Source: Eubacterium sp.
GTDB lineage: Bacteria; Bacillota; Clostridia; Lachnospirales; Lachnospiraceae
NCBI GenBank assembly: GCA_017477505.1
Contig: JAFUVQ010000049.1
Location: forward strand, 1-55,258
Direction: 5' to 3'
DNA length: 55,258 nt
Position numbers and translations under genes: made by a program
Notes under the pieces: model-generated
The model's database searches: none
What the model saw: the letters and a program-made list of their open reading frames with translations, nothing else
Told to the model about the DNA's origin: nothing
Part shown: piece by piece, positions 16,008-51,279 of the stretch
How the letters are laid out: every line of letters begins with the position of its first letter
Numbering within the stretch: position 1 is the first letter of the stretch

Positions 16008-16164
16008 AAACCAGCGATGATATGTCCATATGCAAGCATATTGCTTGCAATAAATGCTTGCATATGGACATATCGAAGGTGGTGCGAAGCGCCACGTGCA
16101 CCACAAGCATAAGTCGCGAAGCGACGACTGACGGCACAGCCGGCAGGCTTGTGGTCGCTGGTTT
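16008..16164 (-). repeat. structured intergenic element, copy E1
   Basis: Between the trigger-factor-like gene and tRNA-Leu. It is bounded by AAACCAGCGA (16008-16017) and its inverse (16155-16164). Inside are a perfect 21-bp hairpin (arms 16019-16039 and 16054-16074) and a 54-nt three-way junction (16101-16154). On the minus strand the junction has an 8-bp helix CCACAAGC/GCTTGTGG enclosing hairpins CGGC-TGT-GCCG and GTCGC-TTC-GCGAC, then TTAT. A second element at 51097-51279 keeps the same plan with compensatory base changes. It may be a non-coding RNA or a mobile palindromic element; no coding potential is seen. Confidence 0.7.
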
Positions 16165-16181
16165 TTACGATTACTTTTCCC

Positions 16182-17267
16182 CTACTCCTCTGCCTCTACC
16201 TTCACAGCGTTGGCAACAAGGAAATCAACAACCTTTTCTTCAAGAAGAGACATGTATATATCTTCTTCATCATACATTGTATTCTTCTCAAACTCTTCGA
16301 TTGTCTTAATTCCGTTTGCATCAAGGATTTCTTTTACTTTATCCTGATACTCCTGGTCATCAAGCTTGATGCCCTCAAGTTCAGCTATGGTAGAAACTAC
16401 CATCTTTCTTCTCATCTCATCCTGAACATTTTCTTTAAGATAATCTTTCAGGTCATCAGATGACTGGAATCCATAGTACATCATAAGTGTATCAACATCA
16501 AGTCCATTTGAATCAGCGAGGTCCTGGAAATATGCTATCTGATTATCTATAGCTTCCTGCATTTCCTGCTCAGGGAATTCTTTGAATGTTGTCTGGTCGA
16601 TGATGCTCTTAAGAATATTCTCTCTGTCATTTCTTGCATCTGTCTCAGAGTTCTGCTCCTCACGCTCTTTTCTCTTGGCAGCTTCAAACTCTTCTGTTGT
16701 GGAGCTGTCTGTAAGAGAAGCTACAAGTTCATCATTATATTCAGGAGCAACATGAATTACTATATAATTAAGAGTAGTTTTGAATACTGCATCTTTTCCT
16801 GCAAGATTTGCATCTGTATATCCATCAGGGAATGTTACATTTACATCAAATGCATCGCCAGGTGTATGACCTGCTATCTGCTCATCGAAATCATCTATAT
16901 ATCCGCTGCTTCCGAGTGTGATCTCTGTTCCGGCACCGTTTGTGTTTCCGCCATCAAACTCAACTCCGTCGATGGTACCTACATAATCTACATTTACGGT
17001 ATCACCCATGGTAGCAGTTCTGTCCATGATCTTCTCGTCTGTTGTTCCCTGGTACACAAGTGAATCGATATCTGACTGAATATCTTCATCTGTTACTTCT
17101 GTATGTGATGGAGTATATTCAACTCCCTTATATTGTCCGAGTGTAATAAACTTGCTATACTTTCCTATTACAGCTGCTGCTCCTTCATTTTTCTTTTCGC
17201 CGCAGCCTGCAAGAAGGGAAAGGCACATTGCAAGTATCAAAACATTTGCAATCTTCCTGATTTTCAT
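16182..17267 (-). CDS. trigger-factor-like lipoprotein (FKBP-type foldase)
   Basis: A 361-residue predicted lipoprotein. The signal peptide MKIRKIANVLILAMCLSLLA is followed by lipobox Cys22 (LLAGC). An FKBP-type PPIase domain spans about residues 85-175 (TVNVDYVGTIDGVEFDGG, LGSSGYIDDFDEQIAGHTPG, NVTFPDGY), followed by the helical chaperone region of trigger factor (EYNDELVAS to the end). The ribosome-docking domain of normal trigger factor is absent and replaced by the lipid anchor, so it should act outside the membrane on secreted proteins. A cytosolic tig is expected elsewhere. AAAGGACG precedes the ATG. Single gene. Confidence 0.85.
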   Translation of the reverse strand: MKIRKIANVLILAMCLSLLAGCGEKKNEGAAAVIGKYSKFITLGQYKGVEYTPSHTEVTDEDIQSDIDSLVYQGTTDEKIMDRTATMGDTVNVDYVGTIDGVEFDGGNTNGAGTEITLGSSGYIDDFDEQIAGHTPGDAFDVNVTFPDGYTDANLAGKDAVFKTTLNYIVIHVAPEYNDELVASLTDSSTTEEFEAAKRKEREEQNSETDARNDRENILKSIIDQTTFKEFPEQEMQEAIDNQIAYFQDLADSNGLDVDTLMMYYGFQSSDDLKDYLKENVQDEMRRKMVVSTIAELEGIKLDDQEYQDKVKEILDANGIKTIEEFEKNTMYDEEDIYMSLLEEKVVDFLVANAVKVEAEE

Positions 17268-17501
17268 AAAAATCGTCCTTTCATATCTTTGTCCGTCTAA
17301 AAAATTACCTTACATTTATAACACAACAGAGTTAAAATTAAAAGCAAAATTTTATTTTTTTCATAAACTATATCCTGCAAGTGGTCTCAAACCCCATCGG
17401 ACGAGCCGTAAAAAAAACGCTGAAACCCTTATTTTATGCCGTTTTTTCGTGTTTTAAGGTAGACATAATTCCGCAACATGTAGTTGTCTGACTATTATTG
17501 C

Positions 17502-17553
17502 ACACAATATTTAGTATTTTGCTATTTACAAACACAATAGACGGTGATATAAT
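17502..17553 (+). promoter_or_regulatory. nrdD promoter with two NrdR-box candidates
   Basis: TTTACA (17525-17530) and TATAAT (17548-17553) are 17 bases apart. Two 16-bp NrdR-like boxes, ACACAATATTTAGTAT (17502) and ACACAATAGACGGTGA (17532), start 30 bases apart, close to three helical turns, flanking and overlapping the -35. NrdR represses ribonucleotide reductase genes through paired boxes. The second box is the weaker match. The remainder of the 17268-17656 gap is AT-rich leader with no gene. Confidence 0.6.
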
Positions 17554-17656
17554 CGACTTTGCGTATGGGAGTTACACCGGATTACGCTTTTTTAGACTGC
17601 AAGCAACATGCTTTATTCTACATTACATAATAACATTAAGGAGAGTGTTAAAAGGT

Positions 17657-19783
17657 ATGAAAGTTGTAAAAAGGGACGGGCATATAGTTGATTTTGACCG
17701 TAGCAAGATCGTAACAGCGATCAGGAAGGCTAACGCCGAAGTCGATCCTGAGGAGAAAGTTGATGACGCCAAGATAGATGCCATCATCAGAGGAATCGAG
17801 GAGAAGAAGCGTAAGAGAATCCTGGTAGAGGATATACAGGATATTATCGAACATGATCTCATGCTTGACGGAAAATATATTCTTGCGAAAACCTACATTA
17901 TATACAGGTACACAAGAGAACTCGTTCGTAAGGCAAATACCACTGACGATTCAATTCTCAGTCTTATCAAGAACAGCAATAAGGATGTCATGGAAGAAAA
18001 CTCCAACAAGAATGCCGTTGTTGCTTCTACACAGAGAGACCTTATCGCAGGTGAAGTAAGTAAGGACCTTACAAGAAGAGTCCTTCTTCCTGAGAAGATA
18101 AGCAAGGCTCATGATGAAGGTGTTCTTCATTTCCATGATGCTGACTACTTCCTTCAGCCTATATTCAACTGCTGTCTTATCAATATCAAAGACATGCTTG
18201 ATAACGGCACCGTTATGAACGGTAAACTTATAGAAAGCCCGAAATCTTTCCAGGTTGCATGTACCGTTACTACTCAGATCATTGCATCGGTTGCATCAAG
18301 CCAGTATGGCGGTCAGTCGGTAGATATGATACATCTCGGCAAATATCTTCGCAAGAGCTACAACAAATACAAAGCAAAATTCACTGAGAAATTCGGAGAT
18401 AAGGTTGATGCCGATACTCTTGAAGACATGATACAGGAACGTCTCGAAGACGAGCTCAGATCCGGCGTTCAGACAATCCAGTATCAGATCAACACTCTTA
18501 TGACCACAAACGGTCAGTCTCCTTTCGTTACACTCTTCCTTCACCTTGATCCTGAAGATGAGTATATCGAGGAGAATGCCCGTATTATCATGGAAGTTCT
18601 CCGTCAGAGGCTTGAAGGTATTAAGAATGAAGCCGGTGTATATGTTACACCTGCATTCCCCAAGCTTATATATGTTCTTGATGAATGTAACTGCCTTAAG
18701 GGCGGCAAATATGATTATATAACAGAGATGGCTGTACGCTGCTCTGCCAAACGTATGTACCCGGATTATATCTCAGCCAAGAAGATGCGTGAGAATTATG
18801 CAGGAAATGTATTCTCTCCTATGGGCTGCAGAAGTTTCCTTTCTCCATGGAAGAATGACAAGGGTGAATATGTATTTGAAGGAAGATTCAATCAAGGTGT
18901 TGTATCCCTTAACCTTCCTCAGATCGGTATAATCGCAAAGGGTGACGAAGAGCTTTTCTGGAAGCTTCTTGACGAAAGACTTGAGCTCTGCTATGAGGCT
19001 CTTATGGTACGTCACAACGCACTTATGGGTGTCACATCAGATGTCAGCCCTATACACTGGCAGTATGGTGCCATAGCAAGACTGAACAAGGGTGAGAAGA
19101 TCGATAAGTTCCTTATGAATGGTTACTCTACTCTCTCACTTGGTTATATAGGTCTCTACGAAGTTACGAAGCTTATGAAGGGCGTAAGCCATACAGAACC
19201 TGAGGGAACAGAATTCGCACTTTCAGTTATGAATCATCTCAGGAATGCCTGTGACCGCTGGAAGGCTGATACAGGTCTCGGATTTGCACTTTACGGAACT
19301 CCGGCAGAGAGCCTCTGCTACAGATTTGCACGTATAGACAAGGCTCGTTTCGGTACTATCCCGGATATCACTGACAAGGGATATTACACAAATTCATATC
19401 ATGTTGATGTACGTGAGGATATCGATGCCTTCAGCAAATTCACATTTGAAAGCCAGTTCCAGAAGATTTCTTCGGGTGGTGCCATCTCTTATGTTGAGAT
19501 TCCGAATATGTCCAAGAATCTTGATGCACTTTCAGAGCTGGTTAAATTCATTTATGATAATATTCAGTATGCAGAGTTCAACACCAAATCCGACTACTGT
19601 CAGGTATGCGGATACGACGGTGAGATTCAGATCAATGATGACAACGAGTGGGAGTGCCCACAGTGTCACAACAAGGATCATTCCAAGATGAACGTTACAA
19701 GACGTACATGCGGATATCTCGGTGAGAACTTCTGGAATGTAGGAAAAACAAAGGAGATTAAGGCAAGAGTACTCCATCTGTAA
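17657..19783 (+). CDS. nrdD: anaerobic (class III) ribonucleoside-triphosphate reductase
   Basis: A 708-residue enzyme making dNTPs without oxygen via a glycyl radical. I start at the ATG at 17657 (MKVVKRDGHIVDFDRSKI); the extension to 17498 is non-conserved leader containing the promoter. An ATP-cone allosteric domain occupies residues 1-~90, and the catalytic barrel follows (VLHFHDADYFLQPIFNCCLI, NGQSPFVTLF). The C-terminal Zn site is CQVCGYDG...CPQCH and the glycyl-radical loop is RTCGYLG with Gly686. The activase nrdG follows after a hairpin. Probable control is by NrdR. Confidence 0.96.
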   Translation: MKVVKRDGHIVDFDRSKIVTAIRKANAEVDPEEKVDDAKIDAIIRGIEEKKRKRILVEDIQDIIEHDLMLDGKYILAKTYIIYRYTRELVRKANTTDDSILSLIKNSNKDVMEENSNKNAVVASTQRDLIAGEVSKDLTRRVLLPEKISKAHDEGVLHFHDADYFLQPIFNCCLINIKDMLDNGTVMNGKLIESPKSFQVACTVTTQIIASVASSQYGGQSVDMIHLGKYLRKSYNKYKAKFTEKFGDKVDADTLEDMIQERLEDELRSGVQTIQYQINTLMTTNGQSPFVTLFLHLDPEDEYIEENARIIMEVLRQRLEGIKNEAGVYVTPAFPKLIYVLDECNCLKGGKYDYITEMAVRCSAKRMYPDYISAKKMRENYAGNVFSPMGCRSFLSPWKNDKGEYVFEGRFNQGVVSLNLPQIGIIAKGDEELFWKLLDERLELCYEALMVRHNALMGVTSDVSPIHWQYGAIARLNKGEKIDKFLMNGYSTLSLGYIGLYEVTKLMKGVSHTEPEGTEFALSVMNHLRNACDRWKADTGLGFALYGTPAESLCYRFARIDKARFGTIPDITDKGYYTNSYHVDVREDIDAFSKFTFESQFQKISSGGAISYVEIPNMSKNLDALSELVKFIYDNIQYAEFNTKSDYCQVCGYDGEIQINDDNEWECPQCHNKDHSKMNVTRRTCGYLGENFWNVGKTKEIKARVLHL

Positions 19784-19840
19784 TAGATGGCGGCTAGAAT
19801 TTCCCCATATAAGATACGAGGAAAATTAAAAAACAAATAC

Positions 19841-19867
19841 GAAGGAGGACTAAACCGGTCCTCCTTC
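19841..19867 (+). terminator. hairpin between nrdD and nrdG
   Basis: GAAGGAGGAC pairs perfectly with GTCCTCCTTC across a 7-base loop and is followed by TTTATTG. It may reduce read-through from nrdD into nrdG, or sequester the GGAGG inside the stem. Confidence 0.6.
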
Positions 19868-19885
19868 TTTATTGAAGAGGTTACT

Positions 19886-20443
19886 ATGAATTATGCAGAG
19901 ATAAAGAAAAGGGATATTTCCAACGGACCGGGTGTAAGAGTTTCCGTCTTTGTATCAGGCTGCAACCTTCACTGCAATGGCTGTTTCAATGATATAGCAT
20001 GGAATTTTAACTATGGAAAAACCTTTACAAATGACACAATTGATGAGATTATAGAAGCGCTCCGTCCCGATTATATCAGCGGGCTTACCGTACTGGGCGG
20101 CGAACCTTTTGAATTCGTGAATCAGAAAGGAATCCTTCCTCTTCTGAAGAGGGTTCGTGAGGAATTCCCGGAGAAGAGCATCTGGTGCTATTCAGGATAT
20201 TACTTTGACAAAGAGATCATAGATGAGATGTCCCGCAAATGGCCCGTAACAAAGGAAATGCTCTCTTATATCGATGTTCTCGTGGACAGCAGATTTGATA
20301 TAGATTATCTGGATCTGAATCTTAGATTCAAAGGATCCTCTAATCAGCGGATTATAGACGTACAGAAATCACTTAAGGAAGGAAGCATCGTCCTCTGGAA
20401 GGACGAGGGGGTATTTTATAATGGTGACCAGGAAAGATGTTAA
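19886..20443 (+). CDS. nrdG: anaerobic RNR-activating radical SAM protein
   Basis: A 185-residue radical-SAM enzyme that installs the glycyl radical on NrdD. The [4Fe-4S] motif CNLHCNGC (CxxxCxxC pattern within VSGCNLHCNGCFN) is near residue 27, SAM-binding GGEPF is near residue 70, and SIWCYSGYYFD follows. I start at ATG 19886 (MNYAEIKKRDISNGPGVRVS), which gives family length and has AAGAGG upstream; an earlier in-frame start at 19787 includes the hairpin. Its end overlaps dut by 23 bases, so nrdD-nrdG-dut form a nucleotide-supply operon. Confidence 0.95.
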   Translation: MNYAEIKKRDISNGPGVRVSVFVSGCNLHCNGCFNDIAWNFNYGKTFTNDTIDEIIEALRPDYISGLTVLGGEPFEFVNQKGILPLLKRVREEFPEKSIWCYSGYYFDKEIIDEMSRKWPVTKEMLSYIDVLVDSRFDIDYLDLNLRFKGSSNQRIIDVQKSLKEGSIVLWKDEGVFYNGDQERC

Positions 20444-20870
20444 TATAAAGATTCTCCGTCAGGGTGCTCATCTGCCTACCTATGGTTCAGAAAATGCAGC
20501 CGGTGCGGATCTCTATGCATGTACAGATGAAAATGTAACTATCGAAGCTCACAAAACTGTCATGGTTCCGACAGGTTTTGCCATGGAGATACCTGAGGGC
20601 TTTGCAGGTCTTATATATGCAAGAAGCGGACTTGCTTCAAAGAAAGGTCTTGCTCCGGCCAACAAAGTCGGTGTCATTGATTCTGACTACAGGGGCGAAG
20701 TTATGGTAGCTCTTCATAATCATTCGGATGAAGCCAAGATTATCGAGCCCGGCGAAAGAATCGCACAGCTTGTGATCACGCCATATATCGCAGGAATCTT
20801 CCATGAAGTGGATGAACTTGGCGATACCGGGCGCGGTGCAGGCGGATTCGGATCAACAGGAACTCATTAA
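20421..20870 (+). CDS. dut: dUTP diphosphatase (dUTPase)
   Basis: A 149-residue trimeric enzyme that hydrolyses dUTP to dUMP and PPi, keeping uracil out of DNA and feeding dTMP synthesis. The motifs are readable in order: motif 1 ENAAGADLYA, motif 2 ARSGLASKKGLAPAN, motif 3 GVIDSDYRGEVMVALHNH, motif 4 PGERIAQLVITPY, and motif 5 GRGAGGFGSTG with the C-terminal flexible arm. It overlaps the nrdG end, with GAGGGGG upstream of the ATG. Confidence 0.95.
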   Translation: MVTRKDVNIKILRQGAHLPTYGSENAAGADLYACTDENVTIEAHKTVMVPTGFAMEIPEGFAGLIYARSGLASKKGLAPANKVGVIDSDYRGEVMVALHNHSDEAKIIEPGERIAQLVITPYIAGIFHEVDELGDTGRGAGGFGSTGTH

Positions 20871-20916
20871 GACCTTTAAAAGAATTTTTATGAAATAAAG
20901 AAAGGAGGATCGTCTC

Positions 20917-22275
20917 ATGGCTGAGGAAAAGGAATATACACTTGAAGAACTTGAAGAGCTTATAGAAAAAAAGCAGCTTGTTGAAGTAAGAGCCTATCTC
21001 TCAGAGCAGAACGAGGTTGATATAGCCGTTCTTTTGGGCGAACTTCCTATAGATAAGCTTTCCATAGCTTTCAGAATACTTCCGAAGGAGCTGGCTGCAG
21101 ATACATTTGCCCATTTAGAATCAGACGTTCAGCTGAACCTGATCAAAGCCTTCTCCGATAACGAGCTTAATTATATCATCAACAATCTCTTCCTCGATGA
21201 TACTGTCGACATGATCGAAGAGATGCCTGCAAATGTAGTCAAGCGTATACTTCAGAACTGCGATCCCGATACCAGACGCGAGATCAATGAGCTTCTGAAA
21301 TATCCTGAGGACAGTGCCGGAAGCATCATGACAACGGAGTATGTCCGTCTTGAGGAAAATATGACCGTTGAGGACGCTTTTAAGCGTATCAGAGCCGTCG
21401 GAGTTGACAAAGAGACCATTTATACCTGTTATGTTACAAACGCCAAGAAAGAGATTCTGGGCATCGTAACAGTCAAGGATCTTCTTCTGGCAGATTATGC
21501 CGATAAGATCAGCGACATCATGGAGACAAATGTTATATATGTCGGAACTCAGGAAGACCAGGAATCCGTTGTTAAACTTTTTGATAAATACGACTTTATT
21601 GCCATTCCCGTTGTTGATAATGAGAAGCGTCTCGTCGGAATCATAACTTTCGACGACGCTATCGATGTCATCCAGGAAGAGAACACTGAAGATATCGAAA
21701 TGATGGCCGCTATCACACCTACCGATAAGCCATATATCAATACCGGTGTTTTTGAAACTTATAAAAAAAGGATACCATGGCTTCTTCTGCTCATGATATC
21801 CGCTACATTTACGGGAGCCATCATCACTAAATATGAGACAGCTCTCGGTGCTTATGTAATTCTTACAGCATATATCCCAATGCTCATGGATACCGGCGGA
21901 AATGCAGGATCCCAGGCTTCGGTTTCTATCATACGTGGACTCTCACTGGATGAGATAAAGTTTTCGGATATATTCAGGATTCAGGGCAAAGAGCTTCTGG
22001 TAGCCGTGCTCTGTGGCTTCACACTCGGTGTTGCGAACTTCGCCAAGCTTCTCATCATCGATAAGGTCGGTCTTGTTATCGCAGCCATCGTATGCCTCAC
22101 TCTGCTCCTAACCGTAGTAGTTGCCAAGTTTGTAGGCTGCACACTTCCGATACTTGCAAAGCGTATCGGTTTTGATCCGGCAGTAATGGCCAGCCCGTTC
22201 ATCACAACAATAGTTGATGCCCTGTCACTGATCATTTATTTCCAGTTTGCATCACATATCCTTCATTTATCATAA
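20917..22275 (+). CDS. mgtE: magnesium transporter MgtE
   Basis: A 452-residue Mg2+ channel of the cytoplasmic membrane. The N-terminal helical domain (residues 1-~130) includes the LLGELPIDKLSIAFRILPKE repeat region. Two CBS domains follow (YPEDSAGSIMTTEYVRLEE, TVKDLLLADYADKISDIMET, IPVVDNEKRLVGIITFDDAI), then a plug helix and five membrane segments from about residue 285, with the pore signature MLMDTGGNAGSQASVSIIRG. Gating by internal Mg2+ through the CBS part is known for the family. AAAGGAGG precedes the ATG. No Mg2+ riboswitch fits in the 46-base gap. Confidence 0.96.
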   Translation: MAEEKEYTLEELEELIEKKQLVEVRAYLSEQNEVDIAVLLGELPIDKLSIAFRILPKELAADTFAHLESDVQLNLIKAFSDNELNYIINNLFLDDTVDMIEEMPANVVKRILQNCDPDTRREINELLKYPEDSAGSIMTTEYVRLEENMTVEDAFKRIRAVGVDKETIYTCYVTNAKKEILGIVTVKDLLLADYADKISDIMETNVIYVGTQEDQESVVKLFDKYDFIAIPVVDNEKRLVGIITFDDAIDVIQEENTEDIEMMAAITPTDKPYINTGVFETYKKRIPWLLLLMISATFTGAIITKYETALGAYVILTAYIPMLMDTGGNAGSQASVSIIRGLSLDEIKFSDIFRIQGKELLVAVLCGFTLGVANFAKLLIIDKVGLVIAAIVCLTLLLTVVVAKFVGCTLPILAKRIGFDPAVMASPFITTIVDALSLIIYFQFASHILHLS

Positions 22276-22292
22276 TAAGGTATGTCACTCAC

Positions 22293-22344
22293 AAAATGCA
22301 AATGACCTATGATACCACAAGGTACCACAGGTCATTTGCATTTT
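22293..22344. terminator. bidirectional terminator between mgtE and the foldase gene
   Basis: AAAATGCAAATGACCT pairs with AGGTCATTTGCATTTT around an 18-base loop, with A/T runs on both sides, between convergent genes. Confidence 0.85.
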
Positions 22345-22347
22345 AAT

Positions 22348-23400
22348 CTAATTAAATGATATCTTCCCGTACTCCGCTAGATTTACATCTTTATCATAAT
22401 CAAAGCTACGGTCAGTATCCTTCAGCCAACCCTTATATTTATCCTGGAAGTACTCTTCTCTTGCAGCTGCAAGGAGCTCTTCCTTTCTCTTATCGGTTGC
22501 TTCTCTGTCGGTAAGGCTCTTCATATAGAATATGTGATATCCATATTCAGTCTCAGTAACCAGACTATAAGTTCCGTCCTCAAGATCATAGAGCATCTCC
22601 GAAACCTCAGTTCCATAACTCTTCTCTATCTCATCCGGCGTCATTGTATAGTAAGATGACTTGTTGAGACCATATTCCGTAACTATGGATTCAATAGTGC
22701 TCTTGCTGTCTGCGGAATTCAGCATTCCGTAAGCCTCAACAGCGCTGTCGTACTGCTGTTTTCTGGCATCCTCAGTATACTTTTCGACGGAGCCGTCCGA
22801 ATTTTCTTTATAGCATGAAAAATATATATCATAAAATGTAGTTTCTCTGGCCTTCTCGTCCGAAATCTCCACATCATAAGTATCTATAATCTGCTGATAT
22901 ACTTTATCAGCTATGATATTCTCGGCTATGACCTTCTGAATCATATCCTGAGTAATGCCTGTGTCTGCAATCTGCTTATCAGTCATACCCTGCCAGAAAT
23001 CTTCTGCCTCAGTGACAGCTTTTTCTTTATCCTCATTTGAAAGAACCACTTCATAATCAGCAGCTTTCTCATTCAGTATCTTAACTCTGACTATATCCTC
23101 TATTATGTCCTTACGTGCAACCTCTTCAAGGCTCTTGCTGGCGCCGTCTTCGTCTATAATCTCCATGGCAAATACATTTTCACCATAGGTTGACTTATAA
23201 CCCTCAATGACAGTTTCTGCATAGATATAAACCTCTCCGAAGCTGATATTCTGACTGCCGAACTTGAATACAGTCGAGCCTGCATTTCCGACCGTACTGC
23301 TGTGACCGCATCCGGTTCCGGTAAGAAGCATCAGTGATACAAGTATAGCTGCTCCGGACTTCTTTATTCTCTTTTTATTAAATGAAAAAATATGCATCAT
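22348..23400 (-). CDS. parvulin-type foldase lipoprotein (PrsA/SurA-like)
   Basis: A 350-residue predicted lipoprotein: basic N-terminus, hydrophobic SGAAILVSLMLLTGTG and lipobox Cys32. A SurA-N-like helical region follows (ITQDMIQKVIAENIIADKVY), then a parvulin-like segment (YDLEDGTYSLVTETEYGYHI, FYMKSLTDREA), here somewhat degenerate. It likely folds or holds secreted proteins on the outer face of the membrane. Its ATG overlaps the mfd stop (ATGA), so translation is coupled to mfd, an unusual partner. Confidence 0.8.
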   Translation of the reverse strand: MMHIFSFNKKRIKKSGAAILVSLMLLTGTGCGHSSTVGNAGSTVFKFGSQNISFGEVYIYAETVIEGYKSTYGENVFAMEIIDEDGASKSLEEVARKDIIEDIVRVKILNEKAADYEVVLSNEDKEKAVTEAEDFWQGMTDKQIADTGITQDMIQKVIAENIIADKVYQQIIDTYDVEISDEKARETTFYDIYFSCYKENSDGSVEKYTEDARKQQYDSAVEAYGMLNSADSKSTIESIVTEYGLNKSSYYTMTPDEIEKSYGTEVSEMLYDLEDGTYSLVTETEYGYHIFYMKSLTDREATDKRKEELLAAAREEYFQDKYKGWLKDTDRSFDYDKDVNLAEYGKISFN

Positions 23401-26933: not shown

Positions 26934-27025
26934 TTACCTGCTTCTTTAGACCTCCTCGCTTTTTTGCGCAAAAATATCGAGTTTTTTATGAAAAGCATTA
27001 TACCACAGAAGGAGCAAAAAAAGAA

Positions 27026-27055
27026 TTGGAACAAAGAAAAATATAATGATATAAT
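27026..27055 (+). promoter_or_regulatory. promoter of the SpoIIE-type phosphatase gene
   Basis: TTGGAA (27026) and TATAAT (27050) are 18 bases apart. A second TATAAT lies at 27042, in the divergent gap with mfd. Confidence 0.5.
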
Positions 27056-27097
27056 CAGATAATCCTATAAATACTGAGAAATATGGAGCAATGATAT

Positions 27098-38973: not shown

Positions 38974-38995
38974 ATACTGTCTCATCATATCATTT

Positions 38996-40495: not shown

Positions 40496-40498
40496 CTC

Positions 40499-43520: not shown

Positions 43521-43565
43521 ACTCATCCTCCCGATGAAGTCTGCAGATTCCGTTCATTATATAGA

Positions 43566-43595
43566 GAGTGTCAGCACCCGGAGATGCTGACACTC
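43566..43595 (-). terminator. hairpin between symporter and alpha-galactosidase genes
   Basis: GAGTGTCAGCA and TGCTGACACTC form a perfect 11-bp stem around an 8-base loop, four bases after the symporter stop. No T-run follows, so it may stabilise or partially terminate the transcript. Confidence 0.55.
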
Positions 43596-43598
43596 GTT

Positions 43599-45410
43599 TC
43601 AGGCTTCTTTTTCTTTCTTCAGCTCTGCGGTGATCTCTGCAAGCTTCTCGTCTGTAAGTATATACCTGGCTTTAAATATGAAAAGTGCTACTATGAGTAC
43701 GATTACCGGAGCAAGTGTCATTACCATTCTCAGTCCCATTACCGCACTGGTATCTATGGTGGCAACAACATTATTCCGGAGGTCAGCGATCTTATTGATG
43801 ATAACTTCGTATGTAGCCTCTACCGTGCTGTCCTTCTGTATATTGAAAAATGTAAGGCAGAGAGATGCTATAAGTGCCGCAATACCGCTGGCAAGCTTAA
43901 CTACGAAAGTCTGCATCGAGAAGATGACCGACTCGTCTCGTCTCTTATTCTTCAGTTCACCGTAGTCTACCGTATTTGCAAGGAAAACTGTGACGATAAC
44001 ATTCAGCACGCCTACAGCTGACATTATGAAGAATCCCGGTACGAAGAATGGGAGTACACTCTTGGTTCCTGCAAGTGCCATAACAAGAAGTACCACATAA
44101 CCGCCGATAGCAGAACCGACACAGATATAGAATATCTTAAGTGTAGTGAAGAACTTCCTGAGGAGCGGGAACATCAGCATCATGGCAAGTATCTGCATTC
44201 CGCCCGCAAATGTATTAAACAGTGTATAATTGCCCTGCCAGTTGGAACCCGCAAGATCATACTTGAAGAAGTAGATCAGAAGGTTCGTGGTGATATACAG
44301 CGCAGTATTGATAAGTACTATGGTAATAACGATGGTCATGGCCTGATCGTTCTGGAGCAGTGCCTTGAACATCTGTTTTACGGATGCAGTCTCCATATCC
44401 ACGGATGACTTTTCCTTGATACATACGCAGGTAATGATAGTAAAGAGTACGAAAAGCGCCGCAATTATGATAGTAAAATACTTGAAGCCGAGCCTCTCAA
44501 CCTCTACATTTGATGTCATCTTAAGGGAAACATCCAGGGGACTACTGTCTGCTGTCACCTTTGCATATGAATCAGAATCCACATAGACAGCAAGTACAGC
44601 CTTTCCTGCATCCATGGAATCCATTACAAATTCAACCTTGCTGCTTTCAGGCTTATTTCCGTCTACGGTAAGCTCGCAGTTTGTATTGCTTTCAGTAAAA
44701 TAAAGCGTATTTTCGAAAACCTTGGATTTACCGGTTATCTCAACATTTACCTTCTGCATGTCCCCTGTATATTCAGAAACATTTGAAGTAGGATTACCGT
44801 CTTTATCGAGTTCTATAACGTACGCCGTCATCTCTACGGAATCAGATGTAAATGTATTTGTTATATTTCCCGAAGTCTTTCCTGCAAAGAATGAACCGAG
44901 CAATGCAACTACCATAACAGTGAATACCTGTATCAGGGCCGAACCCACGCCTGCACAGGAACGTGCAAGTGCCGAAAGGCCTTCTCTCTCCTTACCGCCC
45001 TCGGTAAATGCAGGTATCATGGACCAGTAAGGAATGTCCATCATGGTATAGGTAACGCCCCACAGGATATAGGTAACAGCCGCATATGCAACCATTCCTT
45101 TGCCATCCAGTGACGGCGGCGCTGCAAACATCAGTATGAGTATAACAGCATTTGTGAGTGTTCCAATAAGAAGCCATGGACGAAACTTACCCCATTTAGT
45201 CTTCGTCTTGGCGACTACGATTCCCATCAGCGGGTCATTAAAAGCATCAAACACTCTGGCTATCAGCAGGATTATTCCCATCGCGATAGCACTTACTCCA
45301 AGTATATCCTGGAAATAATACAGTACATAGCTTGCAGAAAGCATATATACCATATCCTTGCCCACGGCACCAAGTCCGTAAGCCGCCTTCTCTTTAAAAG
45401 TAAGTTTCAT
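43599..45410 (-). CDS. GPH-family sugar:cation symporter with extracellular insertion
   Basis: A 603-residue MelB/YicJ-type transporter. GPH signatures are clear: KAAYGLGAVGKDMVYMLSAS, ARVFDAFNDPLMGIVVAKTK, TKWGKFRPWLLIG and FTEGGKEREGLSALAR. Family members have ~450-480 residues; here about 130 extra residues (~177-308, beta-rich, Thr/Ser/Asp-rich) lie between membrane segments 5 and 6, on the outer face by topology. A smaller extra loop (IQKDSTVEATYEVIINKIAD) sits between late TMs. With the adjacent GH36 enzyme, melibiose/raffinose-type sugars are likely substrates. Confidence 0.9.
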   Translation of the reverse strand: MKLTFKEKAAYGLGAVGKDMVYMLSASYVLYYFQDILGVSAIAMGIILLIARVFDAFNDPLMGIVVAKTKTKWGKFRPWLLIGTLTNAVILILMFAAPPSLDGKGMVAYAAVTYILWGVTYTMMDIPYWSMIPAFTEGGKEREGLSALARSCAGVGSALIQVFTVMVVALLGSFFAGKTSGNITNTFTSDSVEMTAYVIELDKDGNPTSNVSEYTGDMQKVNVEITGKSKVFENTLYFTESNTNCELTVDGNKPESSKVEFVMDSMDAGKAVLAVYVDSDSYAKVTADSSPLDVSLKMTSNVEVERLGFKYFTIIIAALFVLFTIITCVCIKEKSSVDMETASVKQMFKALLQNDQAMTIVITIVLINTALYITTNLLIYFFKYDLAGSNWQGNYTLFNTFAGGMQILAMMLMFPLLRKFFTTLKIFYICVGSAIGGYVVLLVMALAGTKSVLPFFVPGFFIMSAVGVLNVIVTVFLANTVDYGELKNKRRDESVIFSMQTFVVKLASGIAALIASLCLTFFNIQKDSTVEATYEVIINKIADLRNNVVATIDTSAVMGLRMVMTLAPVIVLIVALFIFKARYILTDEKLAEITAELKKEKEA

Positions 45411-45434
45411 ACACGCCCTCCAATCCGGTCATCC

Positions 45435-45467
45435 GGCTTTCCTGTGATATCCCGGTCACAGGAAGCC
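45435..45467 (-). terminator. hairpin after lon
   Basis: GGCTTTCCTGTGA pairs with TCACAGGAAGCC (one bulged T) around TATCCCGG, between lon and the symporter gene. No T-run follows. Confidence 0.5.
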
Positions 45468-45475
45468 TTAATGTC

Positions 45476-47752
45476 TCATTTCTCGTCTACTATGCATTCC
45501 TTCAGTACGTCCTTCACTCTCTTTACCGGAATGATGGTAAGTGCATCCTTAACCTCCTCCGGAACATCCTCAAGGTCCTCGACGTTCTTGTCAGGTATAT
45601 AGACCTTCTTGACACCGGCCCTTAAGGCTGCCATGAGTTTCTCGGTAAGACCGCCTATAGGCATTACATTTCCACGAAGCGAAACCTCGCCTGTCATGGC
45701 AATATGAGGATCCACCTTTACACCTGTAAAGAGTGAAGCAAGTGCAGTTGTAATAGTAATTCCGGCAGAAGGTCCGTCCTTAGGAACCGCTCCCTCAGGA
45801 ACATGTATATGAAGATCGTATTCGGAAAGCTTCTCAGTTTCCTTAGGGTATATTCCCTTGATGAGACTGATGGCTATCTCAACGGATTCCTTCATAACAT
45901 CACCCAGCTGTCCGGTAATTATAATCTTGCCCGAACCATGCCTTATGGCAGTTTCTATGAACAGTATCTCACCGCCTGCCGCAGTCCATGCAAGACCGGT
46001 AACAATACCAACCGTTCCGGCACCTTCTATTATATCATGATGAAGGACTCTCCGTCCAAGATATTCGCGAAGATTTTTAGGTGTTACGCTGATTTTTTTA
46101 TCAACTCCTTTAACCAGCTTTACCGCTGCTGACCTGCACAGATTATCAATCTGTTTCTTAAGGCCGCGGACACCTGCTTCTGCAGTATATTCCTCAATGA
46201 TCTTCTTTACGGCAGCATCGGTTATGTTAAGATTCTTCTTCATAAGCCCCATCTGTTTATAGGCTTTTGGTATAAGATGCTTCTTGGCTATACTGAATTT
46301 CTCCGAGGCAGTATAACCGTTAAATTCTATAACCTCCATCCTGTTAAGAAGCGGCTCCGGAATTGTATCTACTGTATTTGCCGTGCAGACAAAAAGTACA
46401 TTTGAAAGATCATAAGGAACATTCATATAATGATCGGTAAATGAGAAGTTCTGCTCCGGATCAAGCACCTCCAGAAGGGCTGATGATGGGTCTCCGCTGA
46501 AGTCACGGACCAGCTTATCAACTTCGTCCAGTACCATAACAGGATTGTTGCTTCCGCTTCGCTTCATTCCCTCCATGATACGCCCCGGCATAGCTCCTAT
46601 ATATGTTCTTCTGTGACCTCTGATCTCAGCCTCATCCCTTATACCGCCGAGACTGATCCTCACATATTCTCTTCCCAAAGCTCTGGCTATACTCTGTCCG
46701 ATACTCGTCTTACCTGTTCCCGGAGGGCCCACAAAAAGCAGTATGGAACCGGACTGTTTTCTGTTCAGAGCCATTACTGCCATCTGCTGAACTATACGTT
46801 CCTTAACCTTCTTAAGACCGAAATGATCCTCGTCAAGTATCTCCTCAACCTTTCCGAGGTCTATCTCCTCAGGTTCCGCCTCATGCCATTCGAGACTTGT
46901 AACGAAGTCCAGATAGTCATAGAGCATGCCATATTCATGACCGTCCTGACCTTCCTGCTTCATACGGTTGAGAATCTTATCCGCCTCTTTTCTGGCAGTA
47001 TCATTCATGCCGGATTCATCTATCTTCTTTCTGAATAGGGCCACGTCGGAGATGCTCTCCGGATGCATCGCATCGAGCTCCTGCTGAAGTATGCTTATCT
47101 GCTTCTTTAAAGCGGATTCTCTGTAGAGTTTCTCATGTTCTTCCATCTGGGCATCCTCAGCCTCAGAATGAACACGGGACATTTCCACAAATTCAAATAC
47201 CGAATCCTCGATCAGCTTGTATCTCTGGTCAACCGAATCGGCTTCTATAATGGCATACTTCTCCTCCCAGGTCATATTGAAATAACCCAGCATTGCCGAG
47301 CAGAGTTCATTCATATTCTTCCATTGAAGTATAAGACCTCTGGCGAAAAGTCCCCATTGGAAATCCTGTACAAAATTCAGAAGAGCATTCTTGACCTTCT
47401 CAAATCTTTCATCCCTCTCCTTCGGGGAAATATCCTCAATATCAGGTCTTACCGTGAGATCTGCTGTTATCTCATCGTCATCGATGATAATATTGCTGAT
47501 ATTAAGCCTGTCGATAGTCCTTATCCTTATGCCGCCCTCGCTGTCAATACTCTCGATCCTTGCGGATACAACTATAGGATATATATCATCCGGACTTTCT
47601 ATATAACCGGGTTTATCCTCTTTGAAAAAGGCAAAATGAATCTCGTCGCCAACGCTTAATTCGTCAATATCCCAGCTATCTATTATTTCCTTCCTGAAAA
47701 TAAATGAAACATCAGGAAGAAGCACCGTATCATATAATGGAATCAGTATCAT
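45476..47752 (-). CDS. lon: ATP-dependent protease Lon
   Basis: A 758-residue AAA+ serine protease for misfolded and regulatory proteins. The N-terminal LON substrate domain starts MILIPLYDTVLLPDVSFIFR; a coiled coil lies at ~230-260. The AAA+ module has Walker A FVGPPGTGKTSIGQSIARAL and MVLDEVDKL, and the C-terminal protease has VPEGAVPKDGPSAGITITTA with the catalytic Ser. Length is near normal though the N-domain is divergent. AAAGGAG precedes the ATG. A CIRCE operator lies over the transcription start, so HrcA control is likely. Confidence 0.96.
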   Translation of the reverse strand: MILIPLYDTVLLPDVSFIFRKEIIDSWDIDELSVGDEIHFAFFKEDKPGYIESPDDIYPIVVSARIESIDSEGGIRIRTIDRLNISNIIIDDDEITADLTVRPDIEDISPKERDERFEKVKNALLNFVQDFQWGLFARGLILQWKNMNELCSAMLGYFNMTWEEKYAIIEADSVDQRYKLIEDSVFEFVEMSRVHSEAEDAQMEEHEKLYRESALKKQISILQQELDAMHPESISDVALFRKKIDESGMNDTARKEADKILNRMKQEGQDGHEYGMLYDYLDFVTSLEWHEAEPEEIDLGKVEEILDEDHFGLKKVKERIVQQMAVMALNRKQSGSILLFVGPPGTGKTSIGQSIARALGREYVRISLGGIRDEAEIRGHRRTYIGAMPGRIMEGMKRSGSNNPVMVLDEVDKLVRDFSGDPSSALLEVLDPEQNFSFTDHYMNVPYDLSNVLFVCTANTVDTIPEPLLNRMEVIEFNGYTASEKFSIAKKHLIPKAYKQMGLMKKNLNITDAAVKKIIEEYTAEAGVRGLKKQIDNLCRSAAVKLVKGVDKKISVTPKNLREYLGRRVLHHDIIEGAGTVGIVTGLAWTAAGGEILFIETAIRHGSGKIIITGQLGDVMKESVEIAISLIKGIYPKETEKLSEYDLHIHVPEGAVPKDGPSAGITITTALASLFTGVKVDPHIAMTGEVSLRGNVMPIGGLTEKLMAALRAGVKKVYIPDKNVEDLEDVPEEVKDALTIIPVKRVKDVLKECIVDEK

Positions 47753-47773
47753 ATATTGCTCCTTTCAATGTTG

Positions 47774-47800
47774 TTAGCACACTCTCTGGTTGAGTGCTAA
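47774..47800. promoter_or_regulatory. CIRCE operator (HrcA site) upstream of lon
   Basis: TTAGCACAC-N9-GAGTGCTAA matches the CIRCE consensus TTAGCACTC-N9-GAGTGCTAA with one base changed. It lies between the lon promoter and its start codon, where HrcA binding would block initiation. Confidence 0.9.
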
Positions 47801-47811
47801 AACCTCTCAAT

Positions 47812-47839
47812 ATCATACTACATTCTGGGATTTTGTCAA
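47812..47839 (-). promoter_or_regulatory. lon promoter
   Basis: On the minus strand TTGACA (47839-47834) and TATGAT (47817-47812) are 16 bases apart; the CIRCE element begins 11 bases downstream of the -10. Confidence 0.7.
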
Positions 47840-47872
47840 GATATCAGCGATAGTTTTCACTCTATTTCACAC

Positions 47873-47901
47873 TTTACAGTGACAGAATTTTAAGGTATTA
47901 T
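47873..47901 (+). promoter_or_regulatory. promoter of the HD-GYP gene
   Basis: TTTACA (47873) and TATTAT (47896) are 17 bases apart, 50 bases before the ATG. Confidence 0.5.
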
Positions 47902-47951
47902 TATTGTGTATGTTTCGATAGTTTTTCTTTTTTTCACGGAGCAGTTTCAGG

Positions 47952-49268
47952 ATGAAAATCGACCTTATAGAAATCCTTTATGCGGTTTCCTTTGCGCTTG
48001 ACGCTACTGAAATTGAATACTATAAAAAGCGTGCTGAGGCAAATGGTATAGACCTGTCTTCCGTGAGCTACAAGGATCACAAGACTAAGAATATTACCAT
48101 GAATCACAGCAAGCGTATCGCCGCTCTGGCTGTTCTCACGGGCAAAGCCATGGGACTCGACCAGGTAGATCTCTATGATCTTTCCGCTCTCTGCATTCTT
48201 CATGACAACGCACTTACAGAGTTTATCCAGGAAGAGATTGAATTCAGGAAATACAATAACGGCCTGCCATACAATGATTCAGCGGTAATCATGAGAATAT
48301 GCAAGATAGGTGCCAAGAATGTCTCAGTTCTTCCTTTCAGAACCAACAACAGAGACATCATGCTCTATCATCATGAAAAAGCAGACGGCACCGGTCCTTT
48401 CGGAAGAAGAGCCGACCGTACGCCTGTCAAATCACAGCTCATGCATCTTGCCGAATGCATAGACTGCTACTGCGACCTTACGGATTCAACCGAGGAGAAC
48501 TACCGTGAGATATGCTTCTATGTAAGGAGCAATACCCGTACCCTTTTCGGTGAAGAAGTTGCAAATGCATTTTTAAATGTATTTAAAAAGAAAACTCTGG
48601 CTAATTTATCAAATGCCAATATCGATAAATTCCTCAGAAGCCTTACCAGGCATTATGAGGACAGCTACAACCAGAAAGAGATAAAAACTCTGGGCGAGCT
48701 TTTCGCAAGGATAGTCGACTACAAGTCACATTATACCTGCATACATTGCGTCGGTGTTGCGGATCGATGCGCAAAAATGGCTGAATTCTATAATTTCCCT
48801 GAAGAAAAAGCTGCCAAGTTTTACTTAGCAGGTGCGCTTCATGATATAGGCAAGCTCTCAGTCAGCATGGATATACTTCAGAAACCTACGAATCTGAATG
48901 ATGATGAATATGAACTCATGAAGATGCATGCCTTATATACTTATGATGTACTGTCCAAACTTAAGGGCATGAAGGATATATGCAACTGGGCATCACATCA
49001 TCATGAGAAGCTGAATGGAAATGGATATCCTTTCAAACTCAGCGGTAAGCAGCTCTCCCATGAGGAACGTCTCGTTGCCTGTTGCGATATCTATCAGGCA
49101 CTCACCGAGAAGCGCCCGTATAAGGACGGTTTCACTCATGAAGAAACCATAAGAATAATGCGGGAAATGGCTGAAAAGGGAGAGATTGATTATGATATCG
49201 TAACTGACATGCATCATGTATTCCAGCATGAGATACCTCAGATTGAGGCAGAGTTAAATCAAAAATAA
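47952..49268 (+). CDS. tandem-HD protein with C-terminal HD-GYP domain
   Basis: A 438-residue cytosolic protein. The second half is a full HD-GYP phosphodiesterase: HCVGVADRCAKMA, GALHDIGKLSVSMDIL (HD), SHHHEKLNGNGYPFKLSGKQ (HH and GYP) and the DIYQALTEKRPYK segment. The first half repeats the fold (ALCILHDNALTEF, YHHEKADGTGPFG) with GTGP in place of GYP, so it may be a regulatory copy. HD-GYP enzymes cleave c-di-GMP or related signals. No sensor or receiver domain is present. It is divergent from lon. Confidence 0.88.
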   Translation: MKIDLIEILYAVSFALDATEIEYYKKRAEANGIDLSSVSYKDHKTKNITMNHSKRIAALAVLTGKAMGLDQVDLYDLSALCILHDNALTEFIQEEIEFRKYNNGLPYNDSAVIMRICKIGAKNVSVLPFRTNNRDIMLYHHEKADGTGPFGRRADRTPVKSQLMHLAECIDCYCDLTDSTEENYREICFYVRSNTRTLFGEEVANAFLNVFKKKTLANLSNANIDKFLRSLTRHYEDSYNQKEIKTLGELFARIVDYKSHYTCIHCVGVADRCAKMAEFYNFPEEKAAKFYLAGALHDIGKLSVSMDILQKPTNLNDDEYELMKMHALYTYDVLSKLKGMKDICNWASHHHEKLNGNGYPFKLSGKQLSHEERLVACCDIYQALTEKRPYKDGFTHEETIRIMREMAEKGEIDYDIVTDMHHVFQHEIPQIEAELNQK

Positions 49269-49304
49269 CGGGGAATCACCCAATGGGTGAATCCCCGTTA
49301 TTTT
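49262..49304. terminator. bidirectional terminator between HD-GYP gene and map
   Basis: Twenty-base arms (AAAATAACGGGGAATCACCC and GGGTGAATCCCCGTTATTTT) pair with one mismatch around AAT, with A/T flanks on both sides. The HD-GYP stop codon lies inside the stem. Confidence 0.9.
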
Positions 49305-49320
49305 GTATTATACTATGAAA

Positions 49321-50196
49321 TCAGTATGAAATAATCTCATGGCCGGTCTCGGTAACAAGCACCTGTATCTCCCACTGAGCGGAATTCTCACCGTCTTCGG
49401 TATATACCGTCCATCCATTTTCCTCATCGATGAATATTTCATGTGTTCCCATATTGATCATAGGTTCTATGGTAAACATCATTCCGGGTACCATAAGCAT
49501 CTCAGTACCACGTTTTGTAACATAGCTTACCCATGGATCCTCATGGAATTCAAGTCCTACTCCGTGACCGCCTATATCTCTTACGACTGAATAGCCGTGC
49601 TTCTTTGCATGATCATTTACAGCCTGTCCCATATCCCCAAGGAAGCCCCATGGCTTTACCTGCTCAAGTCCGAGCATCATGGCTTCTTTAGTCACTTCCA
49701 CAAGCTTTCTGTCCTCATCCGACACATTACCTATACAGAACATACGTGATGAATCCGAAAAGTATCCGTCAAGAATAGTAGAACAGTCAACATTTATAAT
49801 ATCACCATCCTGAATGATTTCATCAGGTGATGGGATTCCGTGGCATACCGCATCATTTATGGATGTACATACACTCTTTGGGAAACCCTCATAATTAAGC
49901 GGCGCTGGAATCGCACCGTATTTCTTACATACTTCATTGATGATATCATTTATATCTTCTGTAGACATTCCGGCACAGATCTTATCTGCTACTATATCAA
50001 GGCACTCAATATTGACCTTTGCGCTTTCCTTAATCTTAAGTATCTGCTCGGGAGTCTTTATAAGCTTCCTGTCAGGAACTGTATGTCCCATATTTCTGAA
50101 ATTCTCAATTTTTCTGTCAAAATCCTCGTGACACTGCTTATACTTTTTCCCGCTTCCGCACCAGCACGGATCATTCCTGCCTATTTTAAAAGCCAT
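49321..50196 (-). CDS. map: type I methionine aminopeptidase with SEC-C zinc motif
   Basis: A 291-residue enzyme removing initiator Met. The first 25 residues are a SEC-C zinc motif (GRNDPCWCGSGKKYKQCH), an extension found in many Firmicutes and thought to aid ribosome contact. The pita-bread catalytic domain has NDAVCHGIPS (His), DGDIINVDCSTILDGYFSDS (metal Asp), IGGHGVGLEFHEDPWV (His), MFTIEPM (Glu) and a C-terminal Glu in AQWEIQV. GAGGAA precedes the ATG. It is a monocistronic gene between terminator and thiG. Confidence 0.96.
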   Translation of the reverse strand: MAFKIGRNDPCWCGSGKKYKQCHEDFDRKIENFRNMGHTVPDRKLIKTPEQILKIKESAKVNIECLDIVADKICAGMSTEDINDIINEVCKKYGAIPAPLNYEGFPKSVCTSINDAVCHGIPSPDEIIQDGDIINVDCSTILDGYFSDSSRMFCIGNVSDEDRKLVEVTKEAMMLGLEQVKPWGFLGDMGQAVNDHAKKHGYSVVRDIGGHGVGLEFHEDPWVSYVTKRGTEMLMVPGMMFTIEPMINMGTHEIFIDEENGWTVYTEDGENSAQWEIQVLVTETGHEIISY

Positions 50197-50290
50197 CTTT
50201 CATTCCTCATCATCTCTAAATATTATTCACTAGCGATTACATATATAACTGACGTTAGATTATTCTAACACCATTCATTCCATACGTCAA

Positions 50291-50342
50291 ATACTATATT
50301 CTTCCCCGCAACAGATATACTATATTCTTCCATGTGACAGAT
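50291..50342. repeat. 26-bp tandem duplication across the thiG 3' end
   Basis: Two adjacent copies of ATACTATATTCTTCC plus 11 bases (ending ACAGAT) cover 50291-50316 and 50317-50342. The second contains the thiG stop and last codons; the first lies just past the gene. Confidence 0.6.
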
Positions 50343-51033
50343 AGGCCAGATGTCCGGCCTCTATAGCTTTCTTGAATGCACTTGCTATGACGGGTATATT
50401 TGTAGCCTTGGCAAGCGCCGTATTGATCATGACTGCATCAGCTCCCATTTCCATAGCCTCGCACGCCTGTGATGGCTTGCCGATACCGGCATCCACTATT
50501 ATCGGAAGGTCTATTTCCTCTATCAGTATCTTTATAAAATCACGGGTTGCCAATCCTTTACTGGAACCGCTTGGTGATGCCAGAGGCATCAGTGCGCTCG
50601 CGCCTGCCTTATAAAGATCCACTGCCGTTGAAAGTTCAGGATACATATACGGCATAACCGTGAAACCTTCCTCAGCAAGTATTCCCGTTGCCTTTATGGT
50701 TTCAGCATTATCAGGAAGGAGATATTTGCTGTCATGCATTATCTCAATCTTGATCATATCGCCAAAGCCCATTTTTCTGGAAAGATGCGCAAGCTTAATC
50801 GCTTCCTCGGCATTACTTGCCCCGAGAGTATTCGGCAGAATCGCCACGCCCTCAGGAATCATGGAAAGGACACTGTCATCCTTCTCCAGTCCGGCCACAA
50901 CGACAGAAACAAGTTCTGCCCCCGCATCGGATACCGCCGCATCTATAAGTTCTTTGGAATATACACTCGACTTGCCTGATCCCAGGATGAACCTCGAATC
51001 AAACTCGTAATTACCCAGCCTAAGTTTATCCAT
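50320..51033 (-). CDS. thiG: thiazole synthase ThiG
   Basis: A 237-residue (beta/alpha)8 enzyme forming the thiazole phosphate of thiamine from DXP, ThiS-thiocarboxylate and an iminoglycine. LRLGNYEFDSRFILGSGKS opens the fold. Lys95 in MIKIEIMHDSKYLLPDN is the expected Schiff-base Lys; EEGFTVMPYMYPE, LMPLASPSGSSKGL, IVDAGIGKPSQACEAMEMGA and VMINTALAKA follow. The protein is slightly short. None of thiS, thiF, thiH or thiC is adjacent, so partners must be elsewhere. AGGGGT precedes the ATG, with an 8-bp repeat array just upstream. Confidence 0.93.
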   Translation of the reverse strand: MDKLRLGNYEFDSRFILGSGKSSVYSKELIDAAVSDAGAELVSVVVAGLEKDDSVLSMIPEGVAILPNTLGASNAEEAIKLAHLSRKMGFGDMIKIEIMHDSKYLLPDNAETIKATGILAEEGFTVMPYMYPELSTAVDLYKAGASALMPLASPSGSSKGLATRDFIKILIEEIDLPIIVDAGIGKPSQACEAMEMGADAVMINTALAKATNIPVIASAFKKAIEAGHLAYLSHGRI

Positions 51034-51053
51034 ATGCTACCCCTGTTTATACA

Positions 51054-51089
51054 TTACTTTCTTACTTTCTTACTTTCTTACTCTCTTAC
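51054..51089. repeat. 8-bp tandem repeats in the thiG leader
   Basis: 4.5 copies of TTACTTTC (GAAAGTAA on the coding strand; the fourth copy has one change) start 21 bases upstream of the thiG start codon. Such short repeats can vary in number by slippage. Confidence 0.7.
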
Positions 51090-51096
51090 CCTATAT

Positions 51097-51279
51097 GTAA
51101 CTGTTTAGTCACGGCAGCCTCAGTCGATGAACCATCCGCCTTCGGCGTATGCCGTCGCTACGCGACTTATGTTCATCGATGACGGCGCCGTGTCCTGTTC
51201 CAGGATAAACATATATCCCCGGCTCTTACAGCTGCAAGCAGCTGACGTGCCGGGTATATATGTTTAACTAAACAGTTAC
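51097..51279 (+). repeat. structured intergenic element, copy E2
   Basis: Bounded by GTAACTGTTTAGT (51097-51109) and its perfect inverse (51267-51279). Inside is a 54-nt three-way junction (51125-51178: helix CGATGAAC/GTTCATCG, hairpins CGCC-TTC-GGCG and GTCGC-TAC-GCGAC, then TTAT), a hairpin TCCTG-TTC-CAGGA, and an 18-bp hairpin with one mismatch (51206-51223/51249-51266). The order and lengths match E1 at 16008-16164 with compensatory base changes. It lies antisense to the flanking genes. It fills most of the 309-base gap before thiG; no coding region is seen. Confidence 0.7.

Follow-up and report, generated by a model that had tools for sequence, protein, structure and literature searches.

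The described system closest to the elements considered here is Clostridiales-1 (Rfam family RF01699), which a table row in PMC2864571 enters as an RNA, as neither cis-regulatory nor a switch, and as occurring in Clostridiales and the human gut. Folded, interspersed DNA has been described as well: a passage of PMC3733652 presents repetitive extragenic palindromes (REPs) as interspersed palindromic repeats of 20 to 40 bp that are hypothesised to be miniature mobile DNA, and part of PMC8946536 presents the integron attC site as strand-specific folded single-stranded DNA, recognised through its shape and with folding favoured on the lagging-strand template. The present analysis concerns two elements, E1 (16008 to 16164, minus strand) and E2 (51097 to 51279, plus strand), in a 55,258-nt stretch (the window) of contig JAFUVQ010000049.1 from a Eubacterium sp. 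of the Lachnospiraceae, together with the family to which they belong. The bcr1 repeats of Bacillus cereus and the BOX repeats of pneumococcus, the latter being modular with tandem units, are of similar size and have a predicted fold; their copies share sequence, whereas copies of the E1/E2 family within one genome differ at many pairs.

The family comprises short (about 150 to 190 bp), protein-free, interspersed elements which are defined by shape and not by sequence. On balance, we favour the view that these are small non-autonomous folded-DNA elements, kept for the fold of one strand and working in the manner of REP/BIME (bacterial interspersed mosaic element) or attC-type sites. The broader proposition, that they constitute a natural class resembling “DNA aptamers,” in which selection acts only on the three-dimensional fold of one strand and leaves the sequence free, and which occurs in several genera and is partly misfiled as small RNA (sRNA), is advanced tentatively and regarded as somewhat doubtful. 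A full element is built from a closing stem, a three-way junction (the core, with helix P1 and hairpins P2 and P3) that some copies enclose in a wrapping stem, a small hairpin, and a long one (median of 28 bp in 96 cases, and at least 15 bp in 89). Throughout, the top strand is the one folded in an initial annotation of E1 and E2, and the bottom strand is its reverse complement, i.e., the plus strand at E1 and the minus strand at E2; G and L labels denote genomes and loci, respectively.

A genome scan with a covariance model of the core built from eight copies (R1), in which 150 of 204 candidates were scored, returned 10 copies in this 3.22-Mb genome at E values of 1.5e-10 or less, the next match having an E value of 2.3, versus two copies in an exact motif search at zero mismatches. 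R1 matches at an E value of 0.001 or less were present in 42 of 61 genomes from the genus, counting this one, and in 23 of its 31 nearly complete genomes, while the closed genome G002 holds 26 units at 18 loci according to R2, a model rebuilt from 124 copies. Across the order, matches occurred in 9 of 392 sampled genomes (this one included) and in 6 of 174 genera, i.e., in eight genomes of five other genera, in a scan that scored 14 candidates per genome, such that absence there says little; no relatives of E2 were found in phage or plasmid collections. Extra tandem units, as judged by reading, lack the long hairpin and comprise the left arm, the junction, and a portion of the small hairpin. 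At one locus (L089 in G023), a hairpin of approximately 50 nt is inserted in P2, and the remaining fold is intact.

Among the 124 copies (117 distinct, and one a weak opposite-strand match in L047), both sides had changed in 19 of the 20 pairs. A standard pair was present in 95.6% of 2270 alignment cells, and 665 cells were changed on both sides, with neither value being reached in any of 500 shuffles; this alignment was fitted to the model and is hence biased towards structure. The covariation score was 0.713 against 0.192 +/- 0.008 for the shuffles, and sliding the pairing partners by 1 to 3 columns reduced the paired fraction to 27 to 50%. In eight hand-picked copies, 13 of the 20 pairs were altered on both sides. 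The covariance search proposed in the initial annotation thus yielded further copies, both here and in other genomes, in which pairing is preserved, and the conserved structure claimed there is supported.

The accompanying claim, that compensatory change implies selection on structure, stands as far as conservation of structure is concerned; compensation alone is no proof of selection, as copying between arms could mimic it. During replication, a switch of template from one hairpin arm to the other would copy mutations to the partner arm, generating perfect palindromes and false covariation without selection, and the scarcity of wobble pairs, the extensive replacement of long hairpins between orthologues, and the frequent location of tandem-unit junctions in or near hairpin loops (by reading) are all consistent with such a process. 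The C·T mismatch of P2, however, persists in 95 of 124 copies rather than disappearing, and TNC is kept at the loop ends. Furthermore, the 16 youngest comparisons (1 to 4 differences) contain seven one-sided and two two-sided pair changes, with two-sided changes dominating later (40 one-sided and 56 two-sided in the 50 comparisons that are 5 to 8 differences apart), although these comparisons are not independent of one another. Because the P2 mismatch is kept and the youngest changes are mostly one-sided, stepwise compensation is favoured, and arm-to-arm copying is considered improbable.

Concerning the strand which folds, the choice made in the initial annotation is not supported. Top-strand triloops of P3 (n = 124) are TTC in 70 copies, TGC in 12, TAC in 11, and TCC in 10, which amounts to 103 TNC loops that read GNA on the bottom strand; those of P2 are TNC (bottom GNA) in 79 of 124 copies, and a top-strand GNA triloop was found in none of 123 cores. 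The P2 mismatch, C·T when read on the top strand, becomes A·G on the bottom. Pair 12-88 is T·C (G·A on the bottom) in 32 of the 35 distinct cases where it is not Watson-Crick, which would give tandem G·A on the bottom strand. The tip of the long hairpin reads GCAAGC on the top strand (G-CTTG-C on the bottom) in 58 of 96 elements, and the bottom strand has the more stable fold in 93 of 95 elements under DNA parameters and in 81 of 95 under RNA parameters. For E1 and E2 themselves, DNA-fold z scores are -10.0 and -12.8, respectively, for the top strand, compared with -11.6 and -13.7 for the opposite one; the RNA-fold values (-9.8 and -11.5; 200 shuffles) are likewise far beyond chance. GNA and GNNA loops are presented in a portion of PMC4686876 as extraordinarily stable, nuclease-resistant DNA mini-hairpins, with a melting temperature of 78°C for GCGAAGC. 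The folded strand is, therefore, probably the opposite of that chosen initially, and because loops, mismatches, and folding energy all favour the bottom strand, it is this strand that should be studied in both elements.

The principal alternative is that the family is a true noncoding or 3′ untranslated region (3′UTR) RNA, in accordance with the Rfam view of Clostridiales-1, with a bottom-strand transcript following a gene and serving to end or protect the mRNA. Wobble pairs are rare, however: the 2270 core cells contain 2155 Watson-Crick pairs, 15 top-strand wobbles (0.7%), 27 bottom-strand wobbles (1.2%), and 73 others, versus 57 wobbles among 709 pairs (8.0%) in 32 tRNAs from the same loci. 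An earlier control, in which 13 tRNAs were folded by energy, gave 40 wobbles in 318 pairs, and whole elements folded by energy gave 166 in 6433 pairs on the top strand and 231 in 6496 on the bottom. In 12 copies, of which E1 is one, the bottom strand is antisense to both neighbouring genes as called by codon usage, and the bottom-strand GNA loop is kept in 12 of 12 of these for P3 and in 10 of 12 for P2. Copies also separate the gene pair rpsH-rplF, at L046 in G068 and at L240 in G420, a genome of another genus, as well as the pair rpoA-rplQ, at L129 in G019, and the coding strand is the top one in each case; Pfam matches support S8 in L046 and L240, L6 in L240, and RpoA and L17 in L129, the L6 assignment in L046 being by reading. 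A 3′UTR role for the bottom strand is disfavoured because loops are kept in antisense copies and because of these ribosomal-gene placements; a separate antisense RNA may be made from the bottom strand. The low wobble content and the retention of GNA loops in antisense copies lean towards folded DNA rather than mRNA. Of the two natures suggested in the initial annotation, that of a mobile element which acts while folded as single-stranded DNA is the better guess, ahead of a noncoding RNA.

The elements mostly directly follow the stop codon of a gene. Gene calls made by a codon-usage rule provided a right-hand gene at 94 of 98 loci, which reads towards the element in 81 cases, and 66 of these 81 genes stop 80 to 118 nt from the core. 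A site at groEL bears this core in 9 of 43 genomes examined (two or more of the stretches being incomplete), a related second form is present there in seven further genomes, and some other genomes have nothing at this site. In 9 of 9 aligned sequences of the second form, the second hairpin carries a GNA or GNNA loop (by reading), and at the groEL site of G002 the long hairpin is retained and the junction is missing. Short tandem repeats (ACGTCCCAT..ATGGGAATTAGGTG in L213) occupy the place of the element at the 3′ end of groEL in G078 and G065 (L213 and L214). The site between tig and tRNA-Leu is occupied in G000, G009, and G023, and other sites are also common to different species. Core identity is 0.74 for copies at the same site and 0.59 for those at different sites (79 and 1002 comparisons, respectively); the proportion of shared 8-mers in the long hairpin has a mean of 0.097 and a median of 0.015 at the same site and a mean of 0.012 at different sites.

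The transporter-thiG gene order of the E2 locus is kept in G023 and G009, from which the element is absent. No R2 match was found in 26 other orthologues of the E2 locus, and among 20 inspected only G023 and G009 show an adjacent thiG. Gain of E2 in this lineage would be the simplest reading, as judged from these two empty syntenic relatives, and E2 may instead have been lost in both of them.

At the gathering threshold, the Rfam scan of the window identified a tRNA and nothing else. Permissive scans of 80 loci detected RF01699 in 15, all on the bottom strand, of which one exceeds the threshold (L099; 54.1 versus 48 bits) and 14 lie below it at E values of 0.05 or less; the subthreshold matches include groEL loci with this core (L033, L041, and L117) and with the second form (L184 and L195). 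E1 and E2 gave no RF01699 match at E values up to 10. Similarities between Clostridiales-1 and the family are a closing stem, a long hairpin with a GCUUGC tip as first branch, and a later hairpin with a GUA triloop, all on the same strand, and the folds of E1 and E2 likewise have a closing stem which encloses a long hairpin with a CUUG-type tip. Unlike E1 and E2, the Clostridiales-1 model has three branches off the closing stem and is without a junction core of their type. E1 and E2 seem to represent a divergent form of the Clostridiales-1 kind that carries a junction, a link which is drawn because of the RF01699 matches in the wider family and the shared sites, such as groEL. The statement in the initial annotation that no family fits accordingly holds for E1 and E2 themselves and fails for part of the wider family. 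A literature search, for the most part not covering subscription journals, returned no title or listing that describes the E1/E2 form. A passage of PMC2864571 weighs single-stranded DNA for another motif, STAXI, on grounds of loop chemistry, and that argument is of the same kind as the one made here.

Under the folded-DNA reading, the bottom strand would be exposed as single-stranded DNA, either as lagging-strand template or through cruciform extrusion, and would fold into a nuclease-resistant DNA structure, which a putative host or mobile-element protein would recognise by shape. The element would be gained rarely at gene ends, duplicate in tandem, and subsequently be inherited under selection on its fold, acting like a REP/BIME or attC-type folded-DNA site while being neither. 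With REP/BIME repeats it shares an interspersed, palindromic nature; unlike them, it is far larger, multi-branched, and little conserved in sequence and has neither a tetranucleotide tag nor a link to a transposase. Mobilisation as REP/BIME elements by a Y1 (REP-associated tyrosine transposase [RAYT]) enzyme was nonetheless weighed, since the elements are palindromic, interspersed, and located at gene ends and since Y1 matches occur in 36 of 61 genomes, with two in this genome. This candidate was rejected and is deemed highly improbable: the copy-rich drafts G016, G036, G061, and G084 (6 to 12 matches each) have no Y1 match, no R2 match lies in 31 Y1 loci, each at most about 3 kb long, and P3 is not preceded on the bottom strand by a fixed GTAG-type tag, the commonest tetranucleotide there being ATAA (22 of 124). 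With attC, the family would share the proposed strand-specific folded single-stranded DNA known by its shape. The R boxes of attC have the consensus RYYYAAC/GTTRRRY, and identity with attC was rejected because paired R boxes were found in none of 95 elements on either strand; furthermore, no cassette array was seen, and no integrase is known for the family, an integrase not having been searched for.

Replication orientation in G002 speaks for the folded-DNA reading. The GC skew of this genome reverses within two intervals, 1.6 to 1.8 Mb and 3.6 to 3.8 Mb, and the bottom strand is the leading-strand sequence (the lagging-strand template) at 12 of 14 skew-clear loci, the remaining 4 of its 18 loci lying in skew-switch zones and being left out of this count. 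In 20 other stretches, the top strand is leading in 12 and the bottom in 8, where 11 of the 12 top-leading stretches had been selected for top-strand location of both genes. A strict rule tying the element to one replication strand was rejected, as E1 and 12 of the 20 stretches break it. Gene orientation can explain this bias.

A number of observations weigh against the folded-DNA reading. E1 and the 11 stretches with both genes on the top strand are oriented opposite to the G002 majority, and neither a transposase or recombinase nor a target duplication was found: no target-site duplication was visible by eye in the E2 flanks, and a search for an autonomous partner by end repeats, in which eight loci from three genomes were read, found none. 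The Y1-free copy-rich drafts and the copy-free Y1 loci also count here. Other points support the RNA reading, such as the sense orientation after a gene at 81 of the 94 loci with a right-hand gene, as expected of a 3′UTR RNA, the filing of the related Clostridiales-1 as sRNA in Rfam together with its bottom-strand matches in 15 of 80 loci, and the terminator-like appearance of several long hairpins with A/T tracts (e.g., L030, L033, and L041); where the long hairpin does terminate, however, the junction would fall past the end of the RNA. GNA and CUUG loops are found in stable RNAs too. Weak Acido-Lenti-1 matches over P2 and P3 lie on the top strand of both E1 (16112 to 16153, minus; 15.3 bits) and E2 (51148 to 51166, plus; 15.9 bits), relative to a threshold of 37. 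Finally, bottom-strand wobbles exceed those of the top strand, at 27 to 15 overall and at 610 to 262 in comparisons that are 15 to 20 differences apart. The former is a weak excess, as an RNA made from one strand should tolerate its own wobbles far more; since it grows in the diverged comparisons, there is a mild bottom-strand preference, which RNA or single-stranded DNA folding of that strand would both produce; in DNA, too, G-T is better than A-C, which qualifies the RNA-like character of this excess. Taken with the rarity of wobbles and the antisense and ribosomal-gene copies, these points leave an RNA rather unlikely.

If the folded-DNA reading is correct, shape-only selection would act on one DNA strand at many loci beside core genes (groEL, tig, and ribosomal genes), and one Rfam family or more would have to be re-read as DNA. 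Wobble-pair and GNA-loop statistics, combined with strand-resolved transcription, could also distinguish DNA-type from RNA-type folding in other orphan “RNA” motifs. Should the RNA view prevail, Clostridiales-1 would still extend to divergent forms beyond the reach of its present model.

With regard to the two elements of the window, the coordinates, part order, and 54-nt segment lengths given in the initial annotation were checked on both and are correct. The cores, at 16154 to 16101 (minus; R1 E value of 7.1e-17 and R2 E value of 3.2e-17) in E1 and at 51125 to 51178 (plus; R1 E value of 1.4e-18) in E2, are 54-nt three-way junctions with equal segment lengths of 8-(3+1)-4-3-4-(1+3+2)-5-3-5-4-8 nt. 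P1 (CCACAAGC in E1 and CGATGAAC in E2) differs at four of eight pairs and the CGGC/CGCC hairpin at one, every difference being paired, in agreement with the swaps reported initially, and a further 3-bp helix within the first “4-nt” segment (CTG/CAG in E1 and CAT/ATG in E2) also shows paired swaps. In E2, P2 has a TTC loop and P3 a TAC loop. Unlike E1, E2 has a second stem which wraps the junction, its predicted arms being located at 51110 to 51124 and 51179 to 51192 (plus).

The remaining parts were delineated by folding. The closing stem of E1 is formed by AAACCAGCGA (minus-strand letters; 16155 to 16164, minus), which G009 and G023 match with a similar arm at their orthologous site, and TCGCTGGTTT (16008 to 16017, minus). 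Its small hairpin, GTGGCGCTTCGCACCAC (16079 to 16095, minus), is identical or one base off in L084 and L087, and its long hairpin (16019 to 16074, minus) is largely different in sequence in the orthologue comparison; matches of E1 to microRNA models were attributed to this long hairpin. The E2 closing stem pairs GTAACTGTTTAGT (51097 to 51109, plus), a terminal inverted repeat with variants in several copies, with ACTAAACAGTTAC (51267 to 51279, plus). Such terminal inverted repeats, a trait of miniature inverted-repeat transposable elements, are thus present in E2 as GTAACTGTTTAG/CTAAACAGTTAC, and the closing arms of E1 differ. The small hairpin of E2 is TCCTGTTCCAGGA (51193 to 51205, plus), with CCTGTTCCAGG recurring in other copies, and its long hairpin (51206 to 51266, plus) has a CAAG loop (CTTG on the opposite strand), as also covered by the loop census. 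A separate terminator-like hairpin, ATAATGCCACCC..GGGTGACATTAT, is located at 51290 to 51323 of the window, between E2 and the stop codon of the transporter gene.

Further structures were encountered at other loci. A second type of palindromic repeat, with ATATGTGC hairpins, a CATAAATCGCTTCGCGATTTAT hairpin, and many stems, is present in L007 (C60:65458 of the same genome as E1 and E2) and in L009 (G015:C88:5522), the L007 site being absent from the R1 core-model matches in this genome. In L035, two cobalamin riboswitch matches (1293 to 1440 and 1505 to 1698, plus; 36.8 and 34.5 bits against a threshold of 31.5) flank and overlap a copy of the element. In L237, whose genome belongs to a different family within the order, a 6S RNA match (1218 to 1408; 61.5 bits) lies immediately beside an element.

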